A stretch of DNA of 61,820 nt, from positions 1-61,820 of IMG/VR virus record IMGVR_UViG_3300049218_000500. One strand, 5' to 3'. The translations under genes were made by a program, and so were the position numbers. The notes below the pieces were generated by a model. That model saw nothing but the letters and a program-made list of their open reading frames with translations. It did not search any database and had not been told where the DNA came from. Shown here piece by piece: positions 2,029-55,171 of this stretch. Numbering within the stretch: position 1 is the first letter of the stretch; each line of letters starts with the position of its first letter. Source of the stretch: a virus.

Positions 2029-2679
2029 TCACGCCGTCACTCGCTTGAACGACACAACCCAGACCCAGGGATTTGCATCCCAAGCCCCATTGCCATTGAT
2101 GCTGTCCCATAAACAGGCGTAAAGCTGTTTAGCGGTCAAGGTTTCGTCCGCATCCGGCACCTCGCGCAGGAAATTGACGCCTTCAACTTCGGCGTCTTCC
2201 TCGCTGCAATCGCTCAACCGTTCGACGCGAACATTCGTGACTTCCAGCAGGATCCGCGACGCCCATCGGGGCATGTGGATGGAGGGACGCCACCGGCACA
2301 CGAGATTGTCATCATCGTTGACGAATTCCGGCGGCGCACCACCATCCGCGGCATATCTGCAAAAGTCCGGCTTTTGATAAGCATCGCGGCGGCCATCACG
2401 GTATTCCTGATATTGATCCTCGGATAGCAGCGGCCCTTGCCACGTCTCCCGCACCCATAGCCGGTCGCCGGTCTGGCCGAACCGACTTCGCAGGCGCTCT
2501 ATCGGATCTTGCGCGCCCACGAAGAAATGGTACGGAACGCCGTCGATCTGGCGTACCTCGCGGCACTCCTGCTCGACCCAGGCGTTCATCGGCTTACAAA
2601 CGCGTCGCGTCTGCGTCTTGCGCCCGTCAAGAATGGCTTTTACCATCGGCGCGGAGAATAGGATTGGTTTCTCGTTCAC
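2029..2679 (-). CDS. ASCH/phage KTQTRR-type protein
   Basis: 216-residue protein whose N-terminus (KPILFSAPMVKAILDGRKTQTRR) is the hallmark of a widespread phage early protein often described as ASCH-like, a PUA-related fold. Conserved features include the G-R-K-T-Q-T-R-R stretch near residue 20, WVRETW near the middle and a tryptophan-rich C-terminus with NPWVW. An RNA- or nucleotide-binding role is usually guessed for ASCH folds but is not shown. Last gene of the leftward early operon; its start overlaps the upstream stop by 4 bases. Confidence 0.8.
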   Translation of the reverse strand: MNEKPILFSAPMVKAILDGRKTQTRRVCKPMNAWVEQECREVRQIDGVPYHFFVGAQDPIERLRSRFGQTGDRLWVRETWQGPLLSEDQYQEYRDGRRDAYQKPDFCRYAADGGAPPEFVNDDDNLVCRWRPSIHMPRWASRILLEVTNVRVERLSDCSEEDAEVEGVNFLREVPDADETLTAKQLYACLWDSINGNGAWDANPWVWVVSFKRVTA

Positions 2680-3029
2680 GATGCCTCCTTTCTCGCACGG
2701 GCGGCGTCGACACTGGTTTGAAGTGCTCGGATTACGACGTTCCGCTTTTCGTCGTGGCCGATTGATCCGAGATGGTCTAGTGCCATACTCGCCGCGTTGG
2801 CAAATCCGGTTACTTGAGCAGCAAGTGCATCGCGTTCTGCTTGCATTCCAAGGAAGCGTGAATCTGCATCATCGCGGTCGCGAGCGATATTTTTCGCTGT
2901 CATTTCGGCCAGCACAGCCCGTTGCTCAAGACTGGCGTAGTCACGGAATTGCACAAATGCACCCGCATCGTCGCGTATCCAAGTGCATTCCCCTCTCTCA
3001 GACCAAATCACATATCGATCAACCATCAC
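2676..3029 (-). CDS. Hypothetical early protein
   Basis: 117 residues, no recognised family. Two ATGs open the frame; the first overlaps the upstream stop as ATGA. The middle (about 35-75) is rich in Ala, Arg, Asp and Glu and looks helical, possibly coiled coil. Its place in the 4-base-overlap chain supports translation; the role is unknown. Confidence 0.68.
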   Translation of the reverse strand: MMVDRYVIWSERGECTWIRDDAGAFVQFRDYASLEQRAVLAEMTAKNIARDRDDADSRFLGMQAERDALAAQVTGFANAASMALDHLGSIGHDEKRNVVIRALQTSVDAARARKEAS

Positions 3030-3226
3030 ACCTCCTTATCTGCCAGATCCTCTCTTGAGTCGACGACCTCGAGTGAGATCCCGAGATCTGCGCAGACATC
3101 CATATGCCCTTGCCAGTAGTCGCTCAGACTCGGCGCATTCATGTTGCGATCCCGGTGCTTTTGGGCGCTCTGATATCTGCTCTTGAGCGCGGCTAGCAGC
3201 TCGTTGTTGCTCGTGTGCCCGTTCAC
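3026..3226 (-). CDS. Small hypothetical early protein
   Basis: 66 residues, mostly helical and polar, with no cysteine pairs or membrane segment. It overlaps both neighbours by 4 bases, the pattern of this whole operon, which is the best evidence that it is real. No family recognised. Confidence 0.65.
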   Translation of the reverse strand: MNGHTSNNELLAALKSRYQSAQKHRDRNMNAPSLSDYWQGHMDVCADLGISLEVVDSREDLADKEV

Positions 3227-4242
3227 GATGTCTCCTTCCCAGCCGACGGAAAGCCGTCATGTGTGGCACCGTCGAGTTGTCTCCCCGCACTCTTTTTGCC
3301 CATTCGTTCGACAATCGCCCGCGCACCGAAACTCGTGAATTGACGTGGGTACCGGTCGGTCCTGTGAAAGCGCGGCATCCGGTCATAGGCATCGTCATGC
3401 GTATAATCGCCATATGCAAAAGCGCCAGGCGTCTCACTCGGACGCGGCTGGGCCGGTGCCCATTCTCCCCATTGCTTAAACAGAAACGGGACGGCGGCAG
3501 CAGCGCACTGGTCTCGTAGTGAGCGGGTCCACTGAATACTCATGGGCCGTGCATTCGGTCCGCTCTCGCCGCCGACGATCACCCAATCCAGTGCCTTTCG
3601 CCGCGTCGTGAGTACGCCACCTTTTCCGTCGCGCTCGGCGCAATCCTCGTATTTCAGGAGATCCAGGTCTACCGGCCCCAACAACGGCTCCATCGAAAGG
3701 AACCGGACACGCGCCGGCACAGCCAGCAGCTTAGGGATGTCGCGATCGGCTTCAGCCTGATTGACGATCGTTGCGCCAAGCCAGACGTTGTCGAGTAGGC
3801 GAGGGTTCCACACTGTTTCAAGATCAAATCGGATTTGAGCCGTCTCCGTGATCATGCGCATGACATTACCGATGCGCTTGGTCAGTAGAAGCCAGTCGAG
3901 GTTTGGCGTCTTCTCGATCAAATCGAAGAGGTCGCATCGCCATTGAACGTCGACCCCGTTATCGAACACGTCGGCCAGACTGGCGCAAAACACGCGCTGC
4001 CGGCGCTGATGCTGGGCGTAGAAGACACCCGCGTTCCGGTTCCATGCCATCGGCTTGCGCCAGTTGGCGACGGACGTGCGTCGCCGTGGAGCACCTGGGC
4101 CCCAGTTCACGGCGGTGCCGCCACCGAAGCGGGCATTGCGCGTCTCGGCGTAGCAGTTATCACAGCCCGGGCCGACCTTCTGGCATCCTTCCCACGGGTT
4201 AAAGGTGTGGTCCGCCCATTCGATATTGGTGTTTTCGCTCAC
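3223..4242 (-). CDS. DUF5131 (phage Gp37/Gp68 family) protein
   Basis: 339-residue protein of the phage Gp37/Gp68 family. The N-terminus has NIEWADHTFNPWEGC and a cysteine cluster (GCQKVGPGCDNCYAE) that resembles the CxxxCxxC class of radical-SAM proteins; later come WLLLTKR, SMEPLLGP and VIVGGESGP, all typical of the family. Biochemical role unproven; Fe-S or metal binding is inferred from the cysteines. The start is the GTG at 4242, because it forms a GTGA overlap with the upstream stop and begins the conserved region; a longer reading to 4371 would run through the neighbouring gene. Confidence 0.88.
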   Translation of the reverse strand: MSENTNIEWADHTFNPWEGCQKVGPGCDNCYAETRNARFGGGTAVNWGPGAPRRRTSVANWRKPMAWNRNAGVFYAQHQRRQRVFCASLADVFDNGVDVQWRCDLFDLIEKTPNLDWLLLTKRIGNVMRMITETAQIRFDLETVWNPRLLDNVWLGATIVNQAEADRDIPKLLAVPARVRFLSMEPLLGPVDLDLLKYEDCAERDGKGGVLTTRRKALDWVIVGGESGPNARPMSIQWTRSLRDQCAAAAVPFLFKQWGEWAPAQPRPSETPGAFAYGDYTHDDAYDRMPRFHRTDRYPRQFTSFGARAIVERMGKKSAGRQLDGATHDGFPSAGKETS

Positions 4243-16160: not shown

Positions 16161-16189
16161 ATAGTAGCAAACGCTACTTATACATGCAA
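16161..16189 (-). promoter_or_regulatory. pL-like early leftward promoter
   Basis: On the minus strand a -35 TTGCAT (16184-16189) and a -10 TACTAT (16161-16166) are separated by 17 bases. Transcription would begin near 16154 and read into the gene at 16114. The -10 overlaps operator L1, and operator L2 covers the -35 and the bases just upstream, so repressor binding would block it. Confidence 0.7.
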
Positions 16190-16203
16190 GTAGCAAATGC
16201 TAC
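16163..16203. promoter_or_regulatory. Left operator cluster (two sites)
   Basis: Two inverted repeats with the same half-sites: L1 AGTAGC-AAAC-GCTACT (16163-16178) and L2 GTAGC-AAAT-GCTAC (16190-16203), centres 26 bases apart. The same motif occurs three times between the repressor and the cro-like gene at 19098-19150, so both clusters should bind the same repressor. Confidence 0.85.
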
Positions 16204-18313: not shown

Positions 18314-18333
18314 TACTGTACATGCATACAGTA
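18314..18333. promoter_or_regulatory. LexA/SOS box
   Basis: CTGT-ACATGCAT-ACAG at 18316-18331, extended on both sides to TACTGT...ACAGTA. This matches the gammaproteobacterial and betaproteobacterial LexA consensus CTGT-N8-ACAG with perfect outer halves. Its centre lies 42 bases before the ATG of the 18366 gene and between divergent frames. No clean -35/-10 pair could be set around it by eye. Confidence 0.78.
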
Positions 18334-18365
18334 AATGATTCGCCAAAAAGCCACGGGGAGGGGCC

Positions 18366-18665
18366 ATGGCGCAGGAAATTGAAAATCAGAGGGGGCGTAG
18401 GTTCCAGCCAGGGGATATGGCTAGGATCGTCCATTCGCTGGACAAGACCCTCATAGGGCGCATTGTCGTGGTCGAGGAATGGCTTCCCGAGTGCGGACGG
18501 TGGGGGCTGTTGCTTATGACCGGACGCGCCGTAGGAAAATGCCTAGAGACCGGCCGTCGCGTGAATTCCCGGCGCTGCGCCTTTCTCGACAGTTCGCTTG
18601 AGCCTTTGACGCCCCAGGCTGCGAACTTGGATCTCGTGTGGACTCAGTCGTTCCCGATAACGTGA
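18366..18665 (+). CDS. SOS-box-linked small SH3/KOW-like protein
   Basis: 99 residues with GGGAGGGG just before the ATG and a LexA box 42 bases upstream. The body (RFQPGDMARIV...LIGRIVVVEEW...FLDSSLEPL) matches the product of 26777-27091, and both look like small SH3/KOW-type barrels. The gene converges on the repressor gene and overlaps its 3' end by 22 bases, so strong transcription would also make antisense RNA to the repressor. An antirepressor role, as for SOS-controlled Tum of phage 186 or Ant of Gifsy phages, is a hypothesis; no family evidence supports it directly. Confidence 0.8.
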   Translation: MAQEIENQRGRRFQPGDMARIVHSLDKTLIGRIVVVEEWLPECGRWGLLLMTGRAVGKCLETGRRVNSRRCAFLDSSLEPLTPQAANLDLVWTQSFPIT

Positions 18666-19087
18666 GTTCGATCATCGTCAGCAAGGCCGCCGCCGTCCTT
18701 GACGGCCCGGAGTAATGCCCCCATCGCTTCGAAAACGTCTTTTCGAATTCCAAGACTGTCGACTTCCCGGATATCGTCGACCAGCTTTTTGGCAGCTATA
18801 GATAAGTCGGCATCAAGGTCAGTCGGCTCATGGGTAGCAACAGCAAATCCAGGGTGTGCGTGCTGCTCAGTTCCTTCGGAAAACCATCCACGCATTCCCG
18901 GCAGCGCTTCGATCGCGCTTATTGTTTTCTCACGGATAGGCCGGTCTCCGCTCAGCATTTGGCGAATGAACGCACCATCCTTGTAGCCAAGACGACGACC
19001 GAATTCGGACTTATTCCCGGCCGAGAATTTGTCTATTGCTGCCCCAAGGCGGGCAGCACGCCATCGCTGAAGTTCTAGTTCGTTCAT
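18644..19087 (-). CDS. CI-like repressor without peptidase domain
   Basis: 147 residues. An N-terminal HTH (about 20-60, with KSEFGRRLGYKDGAFIRQMLSGDRPI) would bind the GTAGC-N4-GCTAC operators; a short helical C-terminal part (about 95-135) may dimerise. There is no S24/LexA-type peptidase domain and no Ser/Lys pair, so RecA-driven self-cleavage is not expected. The ATG at 19087 falls at the predicted transcription start of the promoter at 19095, giving a leaderless message. It is divergent from the cro-like gene. Confidence 0.85.
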   Translation of the reverse strand: MNELELQRWRAARLGAAIDKFSAGNKSEFGRRLGYKDGAFIRQMLSGDRPIREKTISAIEALPGMRGWFSEGTEQHAHPGFAVATHEPTDLDADLSIAAKKLVDDIREVDSLGIRKDVFEAMGALLRAVKDGGGLADDDRTHVIGND

Positions 19088-19094
19088 AACCTGG

Positions 19095-19100
19095 ATAGTA
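19095..19100 (-). promoter_or_regulatory. -10 element of a repressor-maintenance promoter
   Basis: TACTAT on the minus strand, part of the same GCTACTATCC block seen at pL. A start about 7 bases on would be near 19088, next to the repressor ATG at 19087. No good -35 lies 17 bases upstream, which would fit a weak promoter activated by its own repressor bound at R2/R3. Confidence 0.5.
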
Positions 19101-19150
19101 GCGCGCGCTACGGTAGCATTTGCTGCTTGCAAGCAGTAGCAAACGCTACT
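19098..19150. promoter_or_regulatory. Right operator cluster (three sites)
   Basis: R1 GTAGC-GCGC-GCTAC (19098-19111), R2 GTAGC-ATTT-GCTGC (19113-19126, one mismatch) and R3 AGTAGC-AAAC-GCTACT (19135-19150, identical to L1). Centres are 15 and 23 bases apart. A perfect 14-base palindrome CTGCTTGCAAGCAG (19123-19136) lies between R2 and R3 and may be an extra site. The cluster fills the space between the divergent repressor and cro-like genes. Confidence 0.87.
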
Positions 19151-19161: not shown

Positions 19162-19449
19162 ATGAACCTCGACACATATCTCTCATCGCCCGGCGCCCTC
19201 AGCGTTTCCCAGCTGCGCATTCGAATGAATAGGCTGGGGTACGACGTCAAAAGTGACGCGCAGATTCGCCAGTGGCGCCACTCGTACGGTGGCCGAAAGC
19301 CTGATGCCGAAAACGCTGTCGGACTTGAGCTCGCGACCGATGGCCAAGTGTCGAGAAAGACGTTTTATCCGGATGATTGGCATCTGAAGTGGCCCGAGCT
19401 CGCTGCCCATGACTCGTTGGCGGTCTCCTCTGGCGGCGAGGTTGCGTGA
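19162..19449 (+). CDS. YdaS/Cro-like regulator
   Basis: 95 residues. The first 70 follow the YdaS/Cro pattern: SVSQLRIRMNRLG, then SDAQIRQWRHSYGGRKPDAENAVGLELATDGQVSR, then YPDDW. It faces the repressor across three shared operators, as cro does in lambda, and probably shuts down the repressor promoter early in lytic growth. No Shine-Dalgarno sequence precedes the ATG; see the leaderless promoter at 19147. Confidence 0.84.
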   Translation: MNLDTYLSSPGALSVSQLRIRMNRLGYDVKSDAQIRQWRHSYGGRKPDAENAVGLELATDGQVSRKTFYPDDWHLKWPELAAHDSLAVSSGGEVA

Positions 19450-19457
19450 TGAATATC

Positions 19458-19904
19458 TCAACACCGCTTTATCACTTGGGCATACGCGGTGGCAGAGGTG
19501 TGCGCCGCCCGCTGGTCGAACCGACGCCAGTTCGCCGGGAATCGATCCATTTCGAGGAATTGACTGTGCCAAAGCATGTTCTCCACGACGAAAGTCGTTT
19601 GTGTGTAGTCCTCGAACTGATCAGCGGTGATGTCGACGATCGTTCCACCCAGTTCCAGCCACGCGTGGGAGTACTCGCCTCGGTAGCCAAGTACGTAGTC
19701 CGCTCGGCCATGGCCGTGTTGGTCAAGATACTCAGCCAGCAAAAGCGCCGCGTCGCCGCAAGCCCCGTTGGGGAAGTGCTGCAGTCCGATCGGAAGGTAA
19801 CGCGGCTCACACTGTTCAATCGCGCGCCGAAACGTCCGGGCGAGCCGCTCTATCTCTTGACGCTGATCGTTTGTGAGGTGAGTGGTTCGGTCTTTATGCA
19901 TCAC
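19458..19904 (-). CDS. Cysteine-protease/transglutaminase-like protein
   Basis: 148 residues with an apparent Cys-His-Asp triad: C49 in NGACGDAALLLAEYL, the His in EYSHAWLEL about 30 residues later and the Asp in TIVDITADQF. That order and spacing resembles small transglutaminase-like or papain-like folds. It is leftward, antisense to the early right operon and next to cro, so it may be expressed in the lysogen. Function unknown: peptide processing, protein modification or defence are possible. The second ATG may be the true start; no strong ribosome-binding site is seen. Confidence 0.75.
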   Translation of the reverse strand: MMHKDRTTHLTNDQRQEIERLARTFRRAIEQCEPRYLPIGLQHFPNGACGDAALLLAEYLDQHGHGRADYVLGYRGEYSHAWLELGGTIVDITADQFEDYTQTTFVVENMLWHSQFLEMDRFPANWRRFDQRAAHTSATAYAQVIKRC

Positions 19905-26328: not shown

Positions 26329-26780
26329 GCAGACGCCGACTATCTTCCCGTTCGCCCGCGCGAGGCATGAGCGGCATCGAGGCGCTGGCTCGCAAGCGCG
26401 CCCTCGCAACCCAACTCGATGACGCCGCCGTCGACGAACAGGATTTACCCGTGCTCGCCGCGGTCGAGATGATCGCCCTCGGCATGGGAACCACCGAGCA
26501 CTGGGACGTGATGTGCCGCGCGATCAATCAAGCATGGACACTCGCGTGCAATGACATCGGCAGCGGAGCCAAGCCGACGATCCAGGCCGCGAGCTATTCG
26601 CTAGGCGCAATGGCCGAGCGGTTTCATCGAACTGGCCGTTTGGTATTCGACGGCAACACGCTGCGCTTGGTGCGGGAGACGTTGGCCGTTCGTGCCGGGC
26701 AGTTGCGCCTAGCAACGGTTAGCGAGGTTGTTGAAGCGTCTCGAATGGTCGAGCGCTTTTACGGGGAGGTCAGAGCATGA
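26325..26780 (+). CDS. Hypothetical early protein
   Basis: 151 residues, GTG start overlapping the resolvase stop. A basic N-terminus (RRRLSSRSPAR) is followed by a helical body with VLAAVEMIALGMGTTEHWDVMCRAIN and a long C-terminal helix. No family recognised; common neighbours in phage nin-like regions are of unknown role. Confidence 0.68.
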   Translation: MSRRRLSSRSPARGMSGIEALARKRALATQLDDAAVDEQDLPVLAAVEMIALGMGTTEHWDVMCRAINQAWTLACNDIGSGAKPTIQAASYSLGAMAERFHRTGRLVFDGNTLRLVRETLAVRAGQLRLATVSEVVEASRMVERFYGEVRA

Positions 26781-27091
26781 GCTTGAAATGCAAACCCGGT
26801 GAAATGGCGATCGTCACGAAGAATCCGGCGACTCCGGGTTGTACCTGTATGGATTGTGCGGTCTCCCGCGCAATGGTGGGGAAGATCGTGACGGTCAAAT
26901 CTCTGGTCGAGTCAACCGTGTGGCTTCTCGCGGAAAAGCTAAGTGTCGACGCGATGATGACGCCGCAATTTGGCGCTCGCGTCAAGGTAGACGCGATCGA
27001 CGATGATCTGCTCACGCCGCTCCGAGGCGACCCCGAAGGCGAGAACACCGACACGCCAATCGGCCACCGCATACCGGACCTCGTTCACTGA
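26777..27091 (+). CDS. Small SH3/KOW-like early protein
   Basis: 104 residues. Has CKPGEMAIV, three cysteines in PGCTCMDC, MVGKIVTV and a closing IDDDLLTPL, the same scaffold as the LexA-box gene at 18366-18665 (PGDMARIV, LIGRIVVV, LDSSLEPL). It is part of the early operon with 4-base and 1-base overlaps. Function unknown. Confidence 0.72.
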   Translation: MSLKCKPGEMAIVTKNPATPGCTCMDCAVSRAMVGKIVTVKSLVESTVWLLAEKLSVDAMMTPQFGARVKVDAIDDDLLTPLRGDPEGENTDTPIGHRIPDLVH

Positions 27092-51415: not shown

Positions 51416-53536
51416 ATGAAACGACCGTCGACGTATGTAGGGCAAACCGTTTACGAATGGAGCTTGTCTGCTCCATCGCAATATGCGATGACGGCGCTCG
51501 CGAAAGTCTGTCAGACGCTTTTTGGCACGACGACGACTGTCAACGGGCTCGCCTGTACGCCGACGTCGCCCGCAGGCATGACTGTACTTGTCGGGCCTGG
51601 CGAGATTTATCAAATGGCCTCACTGGAGGCGACGGCGTGCGGCACGCTCCCGGCAGACACAGCGCACCAGATCCTGAAGCAGGGTATTCAGCTCGACACC
51701 TTCACGTCGTCGGCGTTTGCCACCCCCGGTACGTCTGGTCAGTCGATTGCTTACCTGATCCAGGCCCAATACGCCGATCAAGACATCAGCGTGGATCCGA
51801 CCACAGGCAACACGCCTGTCGTCCTCCAATACTACAATTCGACCACGCCAAGTTCGCCGTGGTCAGGCCCGAACAATTCTGGTTCGACCAGCAACACGTT
51901 CCGCGATGGCGTTGTCTCGATCAGCGTCAAGGCGGGAGCAGCAGCGACCACCGGGAGCCAAGTCACGCCGTCTCCGGATAGCGGTTATGTCGGCCTGTCG
52001 GTGGTGACAGTGGCGTATGGGCAGACGACGATCACGGCCGCAAACATTGCAGCGTATGCGAACGCTCCGCGGTTGTCGGATTCTTTGCTGAATCAAATCG
52101 CCGCGCGCGCGTTGCTCAACGGCTCCCCCTCGAGCATCTTCAATGCTGCCGCTGCTGCGGCTGGCTCGAATGTCCCGCCGATACAGCAAATTCAATCCGG
52201 CGCAGCCGAGACCGCAGTAGCGACAAATCCTGTAAGCGTCAACGCGATCGTTCTGACTCGCGCTATTCCAGTCACTGCGCTTACGGATCAGATGAAGGTG
52301 CGGTTCAAGGCGGTTGCCGCGAATACGGGCGCAGTCACGCTTAATGATTCGACGCTGGGCGCAAAAGCGCTGAATGGCCAAGGGAATGCGGCTCTCGTGG
52401 GCGGGGAGATTGTTGCCGGTGGCGAGTACGAAGCGATCTACAACGCGACTGCCGGCGTGTATCAGCTTGTGGCGCAATCTGGCGGGGCGATGCAGGTGGG
52501 TGCGGCGGTAAGCGCGTTGCATGCCCCACAGCTACAGCAAGTGCAGAATCTCATTGCCGGCGTCGGCCAGTGCCGCCTGAGTGTCGCAAGTTCGACTTCG
52601 CTTTTGTTGAGCCCATATAACGGCAACAACATCACGGTAAATGGCGCAATCGTACAGCTACCGGCATCCGGCTTGACTCTGGCTAATACCGGGCTACAAA
52701 GCTCCGTTGCGAGCGCATCGTACGCTGTGACGGGCAATGTCGTTACCTATACGACTGCGACAACCCACGGGTTGGCCGTGGGCTCGCGAGTTTATATAGA
52801 GGGCAGTGCAATCGGAGCGAATGGCTCGTACGTCGTTACGGCCGTACCAAGCACAACGCAATTCAGCTTTGCGTTCACTTACGCCACGACATCTAGCACG
52901 ACGGACACGGGCGCGACAATGCAACCTGTTTACTATGCCTATGTCGGCTACGTAAGCAGCACGCTTACTCTGCTCGCGAGTCAGACGGGTTACACCGTTC
53001 AGTCGAACGGCATTGCCACGATGACCGGAGATACGACGAAGACGCTAGTTGGCATGTTTATGGTGAATTCGTCCGGGTTCATCGACAGCCTTGCGTATCG
53101 TTGGTGCTTGAACTGGTTTAACCGGCGTCCCCGTCGGGCTGCAAAAAATGGCGGCTCGATCAGTATCACGCAGCAATCGAACGGAATCATAAGTTCGACG
53201 CTACACACACGTTTCTTGATGTGGGCCGATGATGCGCCTCTGTTGAACTATGCCGGCTCGATAACTTATCCTGGGAGTTCGCCCTCAGCGACTCAACTCT
53301 CTTTCGGTGTTGCCCTAGACGCAACTGCGAATGCGATTGTTCCCGTTGTCGCGGCGACCATTGCGAGTACTGCATCATCCCCTTTTGGTGGGTGCGGAAC
53401 GATTGACGCCGCACTAGCGGGGACGCTTACGCCGAACGAAGGCGCTCATGTGGCGTTGCTTACCGGTTACGTTGGGACTAACGGGGGCACGATAACGCTG
53501 GCCACGTATCAATGCGATATTTCCATTTGGGGCTAA
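51416..53536 (+). CDS. Tail fibre protein
   Basis: 706 residues, Thr/Ser/Ala/Gly-rich. The N-terminus (about 1-220) is the baseplate-binding part with YVGQTVYEW, TVLVGPGEIYQM and YQYADQDISV-like strands. The middle has repeats, then an E1-FCCH-like domain (about 435-500, THGLAVGSRVYIEG, GSYVVTAVP) and a C-terminal domain (about 560-706) that probably contacts the host. No invertase or second fibre gene is visible. Confidence 0.86.
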   Translation: MKRPSTYVGQTVYEWSLSAPSQYAMTALAKVCQTLFGTTTTVNGLACTPTSPAGMTVLVGPGEIYQMASLEATACGTLPADTAHQILKQGIQLDTFTSSAFATPGTSGQSIAYLIQAQYADQDISVDPTTGNTPVVLQYYNSTTPSSPWSGPNNSGSTSNTFRDGVVSISVKAGAAATTGSQVTPSPDSGYVGLSVVTVAYGQTTITAANIAAYANAPRLSDSLLNQIAARALLNGSPSSIFNAAAAAAGSNVPPIQQIQSGAAETAVATNPVSVNAIVLTRAIPVTALTDQMKVRFKAVAANTGAVTLNDSTLGAKALNGQGNAALVGGEIVAGGEYEAIYNATAGVYQLVAQSGGAMQVGAAVSALHAPQLQQVQNLIAGVGQCRLSVASSTSLLLSPYNGNNITVNGAIVQLPASGLTLANTGLQSSVASASYAVTGNVVTYTTATTHGLAVGSRVYIEGSAIGANGSYVVTAVPSTTQFSFAFTYATTSSTTDTGATMQPVYYAYVGYVSSTLTLLASQTGYTVQSNGIATMTGDTTKTLVGMFMVNSSGFIDSLAYRWCLNWFNRRPRRAAKNGGSISITQQSNGIISSTLHTRFLMWADDAPLLNYAGSITYPGSSPSATQLSFGVALDATANAIVPVVAATIASTASSPFGGCGTIDAALAGTLTPNEGAHVALLTGYVGTNGGTITLATYQCDISIWG

Positions 53537-53941: not shown

Positions 53942-55171
53942 TTACCGAAGGACTCGCGCTAACGCCATTTCTATGGCGCTCATGATGCGGCGCTCTACAA
54001 TTGAGAGTAGATAGCCAAGAATAATCGTGGCCGCTACGCTTGCTAGCGCTATTGCAACGCAAGCTTTTGCGTTGGTGACATAAGACGCGAATTGCGTAAC
54101 TAAATATGAAAATAGTGTAGTTAGAACGATGACTTGCAAGAGATAAATCGAGAAAGAGATAGTTCCTAAAAACTTCGATATGCCGCTCCTAAAGAATCGG
54201 CATAAATCGATGCTCATATACGATCCGCTAACAAAAAGTATCGACATTACGAATTTTTCGTTTTCTTGCGTCAACAATAGGATCCACTCCCCAAAATTTG
54301 CTGGATTGCTGATCGGCGCATGACTTCGCAAGTAGTACTCGATCAGATAAGCACAGGCCACTAAGATAGGGCCACAAACGCGTGCTGCTACGGTAAGGCC
54401 GATTTTTTTTAACCCACCAGTTGATCTGATGTGACTGAGTAGCACGCCAAAGAAGAAAAGGGCGTAGTAATCCACGCAGTGCAGTGAAATGGCTATAAGC
54501 AGTCCGAGGACTAACTTCGGGTATCTAAGTCTTTCATGAATATAGAGATACAGAAAGACAAAAATTGAGCCGCGCAACTCGGTCGCCATTGTCCAAAGAA
54601 ATGGATTGAAGCCTTTGGGGTTTCCTCCAACGGCAAACACCGTAAAGAAGGGGTACATCAATGCGTCGATGGCATCGAAATCGGATGGAAGCAAAGTGCC
54701 TATCCAATCCTCGCGATGCAGAATTTTGGCGGCTGCGACATTGTTGACTATGCCTAGCCATATCGCTGCAACTGTAATAAGCGTGATTACAAAGATAGGT
54801 GCGGCGAGGCGAAAATATCTTTTTAAAACCATTCTGTCCAAAACGATTTTTTGGGTTCCAGCAAAGAATGGAGTTGAAAGTGCATCGCCGGAAAGAATGA
54901 AAAATATGTAAACAGCTAAAGGCCCGTCGAAAAAAAAGGCCAGTGCAGGCTGCCTGAAATTTGGATGTAGGGTGCCAAAAGATTCATTCCAGAAATGGAA
55001 TACTACGACGGCGAGCGCGGCCCATCCTCGAATGCCGTCGATCTCTTCGACTCGCATCGACTTAGGCAGCGCCATGGTAGGGGTGCCACCATGAACTGAG
55101 GTGTTAGTGCTCGCTTTGACCATTTGATGTGAATGATTCATTTGTGAGGGCGGCAGCATATCAGAAGACAC
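53942..55171 (-). CDS. Membrane acyltransferase (OafA/YrhL-like)
   Basis: Up to 409 residues, about ten hydrophobic segments. EIDGIRGWAALAVVVFHFWNE near residues 43-63 is the acyltransferase-3 signature (R-G-x-A-x2-V-V-x-F-H). Such prophage enzymes acetylate O-antigen or other glycans and change phage receptors. The DNA is much richer in A and T than the late genes, pointing to separate acquisition, and it is read against them. The start is uncertain: the GTG at 55171 is used, but ATGs at 55159, 55141, 55123, 55075 and 55057 are possible and none has a good ribosome-binding site. Confidence 0.9.
   Translation of the reverse strand: MSSDMLPPSQMNHSHQMVKASTNTSVHGGTPTMALPKSMRVEEIDGIRGWAALAVVVFHFWNESFGTLHPNFRQPALAFFFDGPLAVYIFFILSGDALSTPFFAGTQKIVLDRMVLKRYFRLAAPIFVITLITVAAIWLGIVNNVAAAKILHREDWIGTLLPSDFDAIDALMYPFFTVFAVGGNPKGFNPFLWTMATELRGSIFVFLYLYIHERLRYPKLVLGLLIAISLHCVDYYALFFFGVLLSHIRSTGGLKKIGLTVAARVCGPILVACAYLIEYYLRSHAPISNPANFGEWILLLTQENEKFVMSILFVSGSYMSIDLCRFFRSGISKFLGTISFSIYLLQVIVLTTLFSYLVTQFASYVTNAKACVAIALASVAATIILGYLLSIVERRIMSAIEMALARVLR

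Follow-up and report, generated by a model that had tools for sequence, protein, structure and literature searches.

A small gene behind a LexA box, convergent on a phage repressor gene without a peptidase domain: a candidate SOS-controlled antirepressor of Burkholderiaceae prophages

Introduction

How can a prophage respond to DNA damage when its repressor carries no domain for cutting itself? The question is raised by a 61,820-bp stretch of DNA, IMG/VR virus record IMGVR_UViG_3300049218_000500, referred to here as the window. An integrase-like open reading frame (ORF) marks one end, the structural genes span roughly 31 to 53 kb, and host-like genes (response-regulator domain) occupy the right end, so we regard it as a prophage. 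In its immunity region, a gene for a 99-aa protein (P99) follows a LexA box and runs tail to tail into the gene for a short lysogeny repressor (Table 1). Reading from sequence, we propose that P99 is probably an SOS-controlled antirepressor that binds the repressor's tail and whose gene forms a portable cassette with that of its target.

Table 1 Features of the switch region in the window
Feature	Position	Strand	Evidence
LexA (SOS) box TACTGTACATGCATACAGTA	18314..18333	+	Exact match; precedes P99 gene
P99, 99 aa, SH3/KOW-like, proposed SOS-induced antirepressor	18366..18665	+	tblastn, alignments A1/A3, AF2 model, purifying selection
P99/repressor tail-to-tail overlap, 22 bp	18644..18665		Coordinates; overlap kept (14-110 bp) in relatives
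Lysogeny repressor, 147 aa, without S24 peptidase domain	18644..19087	-	HTH compared with VarioGold CI; KS9 gp41 in equivalent position
Repressor HTH domain, residues 3-60	18908..19081	-	AF2 helices, pLDDT about 92; BLASTP to VarioGold
Repressor C-terminal two-helix hairpin, residues 97-131; proposed P99 target	18695..18799	-	AF2; conserved with Bcep176 gp20
Right operators GTAGCN4GCTAC at 19098, 19113 (one mismatch), and 19136	19098..19149		Repressor/cro gap
Left operators, two perfect GTAGCN4GCTAC	16164..16203		Palindrome scan
Cro/YdaS-like regulator, divergent from repressor	19162..19449	+	YdaS_toxin, E=7e-4 (below Pfam cut-off); phrog_35 transcriptional repressor, E=2e-8

Results

The repressor lacks a peptidase domain

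By position and by descent, as judged from its sequence, the 147-aa protein is the repressor. Residues 1 to 79 are 47% identical to the N terminus of CI from Variovorax phage VarioGold; CI of VarioGold continues into an S24 domain, and the match ends where the S24 part would start. The 147-aa protein had no Pfam match, and Pfam detected no S24 domain in it or in 25 related repressors (26 in all). The AF2 model consists of an HTH, a low-confidence linker (residues 75 to 85), and a hairpin of two helices (residues 97 to 111 and 116 to 131; pLDDT about 90). Pfam and the model agree with the initial annotation, which had described a 147-residue HTH protein with no S24/LexA-like peptidase; cleavable repressors of the Lambda/P22 type carry that domain at the C terminus, and this one does not. 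Weak fold matches of the model (E>0.1) included a SinR/SinI entry (1b0n) and, from a temperate phage of Salmonella, a Rep-Ant complex (5d50). A longer repressor ORF, from 19186, can also be read, but the ATG at 19087 was preferred, because the longer reading would extend across the operators and the cro side.

The palindrome GTAGCN4GCTAC has five sites in the window (four perfect and one mismatched), compared with 1.29 expected. They are confined to two clusters and look like the right and left operators. Just right of cro, at 19458 to 19904 on the minus strand, lies a gene for a transglutaminase-like/YunG-like small protein (below cut-off). Farther along, after the tail genes, an acyltransferase-like ORF judged by eye (DGIRGWAALAVVVFHF; 53942 to 55171, minus strand) is a possible lysogenic-conversion gene.

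The P99 gene follows a perfect LexA box core

The box matches the E. coli LexA consensus at 17 of 20 positions, whereas across 60 Markov-simulated versions of the window no 20-mer exceeded 14 of 20, and its CTGT-N8-ACAG core (18316 to 18331) is perfect. Most beta-proteobacteria have this core as their LexA motif (PMC3323433); the box upstream of the P99 gene thus matches the host-type motif. The window holds only two exact cores, and the other, at 51995, was set aside as lying inside an ORF of the structural region. From the end of the box to the ATG of P99 is 32 bp; the distance of 42 bases first given for this perfect box is correct only from the box center. The same 20-mer occurs in phages KS9 and Magia, which encode relatives of P99. 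The inner box bases ACATGCAT are identical in many distant members (the window, KS9, Magia, and others), beyond what CTGT-N8-ACAG demands; a second binding site may overlap.

The two IMG/VR searches and the genome scan described below yielded 87 box-bearing records; these sets include near-identical prophages and reduce to 67 distinct promoter regions. In most of the 67, a sigma-70-like TTGAAA-N18-TAAACT abuts or runs into the box, so that LexA would block the promoter. The relatives' -35/-10 pattern was unrecognizable in the window, where a promoter scan found no sigma-70 promoter ahead of P99 and found terminators at chance level only. A scan of the window for GTAGCN4GCTAC found no operator at the P99 promoter; P99 therefore seems to be under the control of LexA rather than of the phage repressor.

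P99 belongs to a family of Burkholderiaceae phage proteins

No named family for P99 was found in Pfam, PHROG, or NCBIfam, the PDB gave no convincing match, and a DNA-level search of phages gave no match. With tblastn, relatives were identified in four phages, namely, KS9 gp40, Bcep176 gp21, Magia gp60, and BgManors32 UEW68573. Homology over the barrel core places the window protein in this KS9 gp40-like family; it is not an orphan. Its match to the P99 profile has an E value of 5e-30, the protein itself being part of that profile. Residues R12, P15, G16, D17, A19, L29, V34, W46, D75, L78, and P80 are invariant in the alignment, and the codons are under purifying selection (median dN/dS about 0.13; pairs 70 to 97% identical). 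The phage records annotate gp40 and its relatives only as "hypothetical protein," and no induction role for any of them was found in the accessible literature.

AF2 models P99, with moderate confidence (pLDDT 73.8), as an SH3/KOW-like barrel of seven strands plus a C-terminal helix. The nearest PDB structures were ribosomal L24 and the KOW domains of NusG/Spt5, all weak matches (E>1e-3; TM about 0.45), and closer than these were uncharacterized phage proteins. That the fold is nearer to RNA- or RNA polymerase-binding KOW domains than to known antirepressors, weak as the matches are, weighs against an antirepressor. A PemK/MazF-family entry among the weak viral fold matches brings up another reading, in which an SOS-induced toxin (P99) and its antitoxin (the repressor tail) form a toxin-antitoxin-like pair that has been added to immunity control. 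A small SH3-like barrel next to an HTH head that bears a C-terminal segment does recall antitoxin/toxin pairs, and some of the repressors have HipB/HigA-like HTH matches. However, such antitoxin-type HTH matches are generic, the genes converge and form no operon, and relief of repression is a simpler need where S24 is missing; we consider this reading highly improbable.

A second P99-like gene lies in the replication region of the window (26777 to 27091, plus strand; MSLKCKPGEMAIVTKNPA...; profile E about 1e-4). The window scan found no LexA-like core near it, and it belongs to a box-less branch of the family.

Box, orientation, and overlap recur in relatives

The four phage loci are organized like that of the window. 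In each, the P99 homologue has a perfect LexA box just upstream and converges on a short, S24-less HTH protein (114 to 155 aa; gp41 in KS9, gp20 in Bcep176, and gp61 in Magia), with a 33- to 74-bp overlap. KS9, BgManors32, and Magia also have a divergent cro, as in the window. The window repressor has an HTH unrelated to those of the KS9 group and a tail of type B, common to it and Bcep176. KS9 gp41, whose gene overlaps that of gp40, was identified experimentally as the KS9 repressor, by insertional inactivation (Lynch et al. 2010, J Virol 84:1276, cited in PMC8310193).

A scan of IMG/VR with the window P99 as a single protein returned nothing, because that protein is too divergent; an alignment of five proteins (window plus four phages) used as the query succeeded and gave 49 further loci. 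Across the window, the four phages, and IMG/VR, 53 of 54 loci had a perfect box core (15 to 19 of 20 matches to the consensus) directly upstream and a convergent overlapping ORF, and the core was perfect for all 53 repressor-adjacent relatives in the IMG/VR and phage records. The 54th locus (L020) consists of three P99-like genes in tandem and has no repressor. Tandem P99-like genes in phage operons, without a LexA box or an adjoining repressor, were seen there (positions 2490 to 3300) and at L128/L151 and L136/L153. A profile search of genome contigs with alignment A6 gave only 4 loci.

We then turn to a sample of 399 genomes from the family of B. dolosa (Burkholderiaceae), one per species, of which 58 carried P99-family genes. 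Among the 72 distinct loci examined, 48 had a perfect box core and 24 did not. All 48 box-bearing loci overlapped a convergent short ORF (122 to 200 aa, HTH plus tail), 43 of these neighbors being recognized by the tail pattern and the other five being read by eye as HTH-plus-tail proteins. Such a repressor was found at 1 of the 24 box-less loci (P=5e-13 by Fisher's exact test with the five unrecognized neighbors counted against the link and with a tail pattern composed after some of the surveyed sequences had been seen). An HMM built earlier pointed in the same direction: 26 of its tail loci had a box, and the only other one had a 14/20 box that fell below the threshold of 15/20. The box-less relatives provide an internal control, in which the box goes with a neighboring repressor and not with the fold. 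The window P99, with its convergent overlap with a short HTH-plus-tail repressor, fits the SOS branch of the family. In Burkholderia sp. TSV86 (L114, which is also L117), a P99-like gene overlaps a tail-type repressor gene with no recognizable LexA box, the sole exception to this pattern and a point against the antirepressor reading. Samples of 399 genomes each from the order and from the phylum held no member beyond two Burkholderiaceae genomes already found. It is this recurrence that gives the window locus its significance, since 53 of 53 and 48 of 48 kin loci keep box, orientation, and overlap.

Action by a protein is favored, and the overlap may contribute

The coordinates put the end of the P99 gene 22 bases inside the repressor gene, exactly as first described, and a tail-to-tail overlap (14 to 110 bp) is present in every box-bearing locus, steadier than compact packing explains. 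The initial annotation had left open whether P99 works by protein contact or by antisense/convergent transcription. If the switch were one of RNA, SOS transcription from the box would enter the repressor gene, interference or antisense RNA would lower repressor synthesis, and the P99 protein would be secondary. The constancy of the overlap speaks for this, as does the absence of anything between the genes, from which read-through is expected. Yet the length of the overlap varies widely, reduced synthesis alone would be slow against repressor already present, and the link to tail type, not to orientation alone, suggests protein specificity. Purifying selection on P99 as a protein makes action by RNA only unlikely, and so we judge this alternative. 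A protein is favored both by the dN/dS value and by the way P99 tracks the tail; antisense or convergent interference may act in addition, because every box-bearing locus keeps the 3' overlap. The overlap may prevent recombination from separating the cognate pair, or repressor loss may be increased by convergent transcription.

P99 and the box accompany a particular repressor tail and probably replace S24

We compared repressors with the same DNA-binding head by searching IMG/VR with the HTH of KS9 gp41 and its relatives, which yielded 51 repressors. A type-A tail (P-x-GW-x2-L-x4-RAxVE-x-FI-x2-LL) was present in 32 of the 51, and all 32 had a convergent P99 gene and a perfect box, 284 to 296 bp past the repressor stop. 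P99 or a box accompanied none of the nine S24-bearing repressors (eight called by similarity and one, L088, judged from its sequence) and none of the 10 repressors with other short tails. KS9-type heads with other short, S24-less tails and no P99 were seen in Pseudomonas phages CF63a and Atpa001 (L009 and L011) and at L084 to L087, L089 to L091, L093, L109, and L110; these may hide yet other induction mechanisms.

The dependence on S24 status bears on the possibility that P99, under SOS control, merely adjoins the repressor and is a KOW-type factor whose target is RNA polymerase, RNA, or the ribosome (as it might be in antitermination of early operons). Its best PDB matches are of that kind, and box-less paralogs do occur in tandem phage operons away from repressors. 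Even so, the barrel is promiscuous and the matches are weak, and a general transcription factor would not explain why P99 is present or absent according to the S24 status of the repressor. We think it very unlikely that P99 is such a factor.

Head and tail of the repressor have had separate histories. At E<1e-5, 56 distinct loci fell into 10 HTH clusters, three tail clusters, and one P99 cluster, and the tails merged into one cluster at E<1e-3. P99 pairs that are 80 to 90% identical sit beside repressors with unrelated HTHs. The Mantel correlation was 0.55 between P99 and tail (maximum of 1,000 permutations, 0.16) versus 0.36 between P99 and HTH, although tail and P99 genes are linked and overlapping, so that co-inheritance need not mean contact; nearly identical P99s also occur with tails only 35 to 38% identical over 55 aa. 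The sharing of P99 and tail across unrelated heads indicates that recombination falls between head and tail, keeping tail and P99 together. Taken with the S24/tail pattern, this shuffling suggests that tail, P99, and LexA box behave as a portable SOS-induction cassette that replaces S24 self-cleavage. We put at even odds the reading in which a single P99 family reads a single hairpin tail grafted on about ten or more unrelated heads, any of which could be made SOS inducible through the cassette instead of S24.

Discussion

A proposed switch

In the antirepressor model that we favor, host LexA on its box would silence P99 in the lysogen, while the 147-aa repressor would occupy both operator clusters. 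DNA damage would lead to RecA-stimulated self-cleavage of LexA, and P99 would be made. The P99 barrel would then bind the C-terminal hairpin, which probably dimerizes the repressor, and pull the repressor off its operators so that cro and the lytic operons fire; convergent interference may add to the switch. Hairpin tail, convergent P99, and LexA box together would fill the place of S24 on repressors with an equal DNA-binding head.

If true, the model would account for a DNA damage response in a large set of Burkholderia prophages, including KS9, that have repressors unable to self-cleave, and it would assign a role to proteins that are hypothetical in every annotation. The shuffling of heads and tails suggests that the inducibility of a prophage resides in an exchangeable cassette, independent of its immunity specificity. 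By recognizing the tail instead of the head, an antirepressor could act in trans on heteroimmune prophages in one cell, inducing them and so synchronizing polylysogens; the model thus predicts cross-induction of heteroimmune prophages and also transplantable inducibility. This is of relevance to temperate Burkholderia phages and to antibiotic-triggered induction in the cepacia complex.

Comparison with known systems

VarioGold CI and the CI of Bordetella phage IFTN9, of the Lambda type with a LexA-like S24 domain, have heads like those of P99-system repressors (HTH 47 to 68% identical). They carry S24 and have neither a P99 gene nor a LexA box; in the window the situation is the opposite. An HTH head with a small C-terminal helical module that is bound by a small antagonist is found in SinR/SinI of Bacillus and in Rep/Ant of SPC32H. 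The antagonists in these two systems are not known to be SH3/KOW barrels, and in a profile search against every chain in the PDB, P99 had no relevant match to SPC32H Ant (5d50) or SinI.

Tum of coliphage 186 differs from P99 in gene position and is probably a different protein. It is an SOS-regulated antirepressor of a non-cleavable repressor (cited in PMC10432266). Gifsy phages encode small LexA-controlled antirepressors that release repressors lacking a cleavage domain; one of them can act on two heteroimmune repressors, and their genes map outside the immunity region, adjacent to a dinI homologue (PMC3121763). GfoA, GfhA, and GftA of Gifsy have their logic, a non-cleavable repressor and a LexA-controlled small protein, in common with the window; the published layout of GfoA/GftA sets them apart from it, since the P99 gene overlaps the repressor gene. 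The initial annotation had suggested a new type of SOS-to-lysis switch. Comparative genomics strongly supports a switch on a non-self-cleaving repressor, one that extends well past a single prophage, but SOS-controlled antirepressors (Tum and those of Gifsy) were already known; it is the P99 family and its architecture that appear to be undescribed. The Burkholderia P99 system is the Gifsy logic with a different protein, with a site that overlaps the repressor gene in place of a distant operon, and with a visible module structure.
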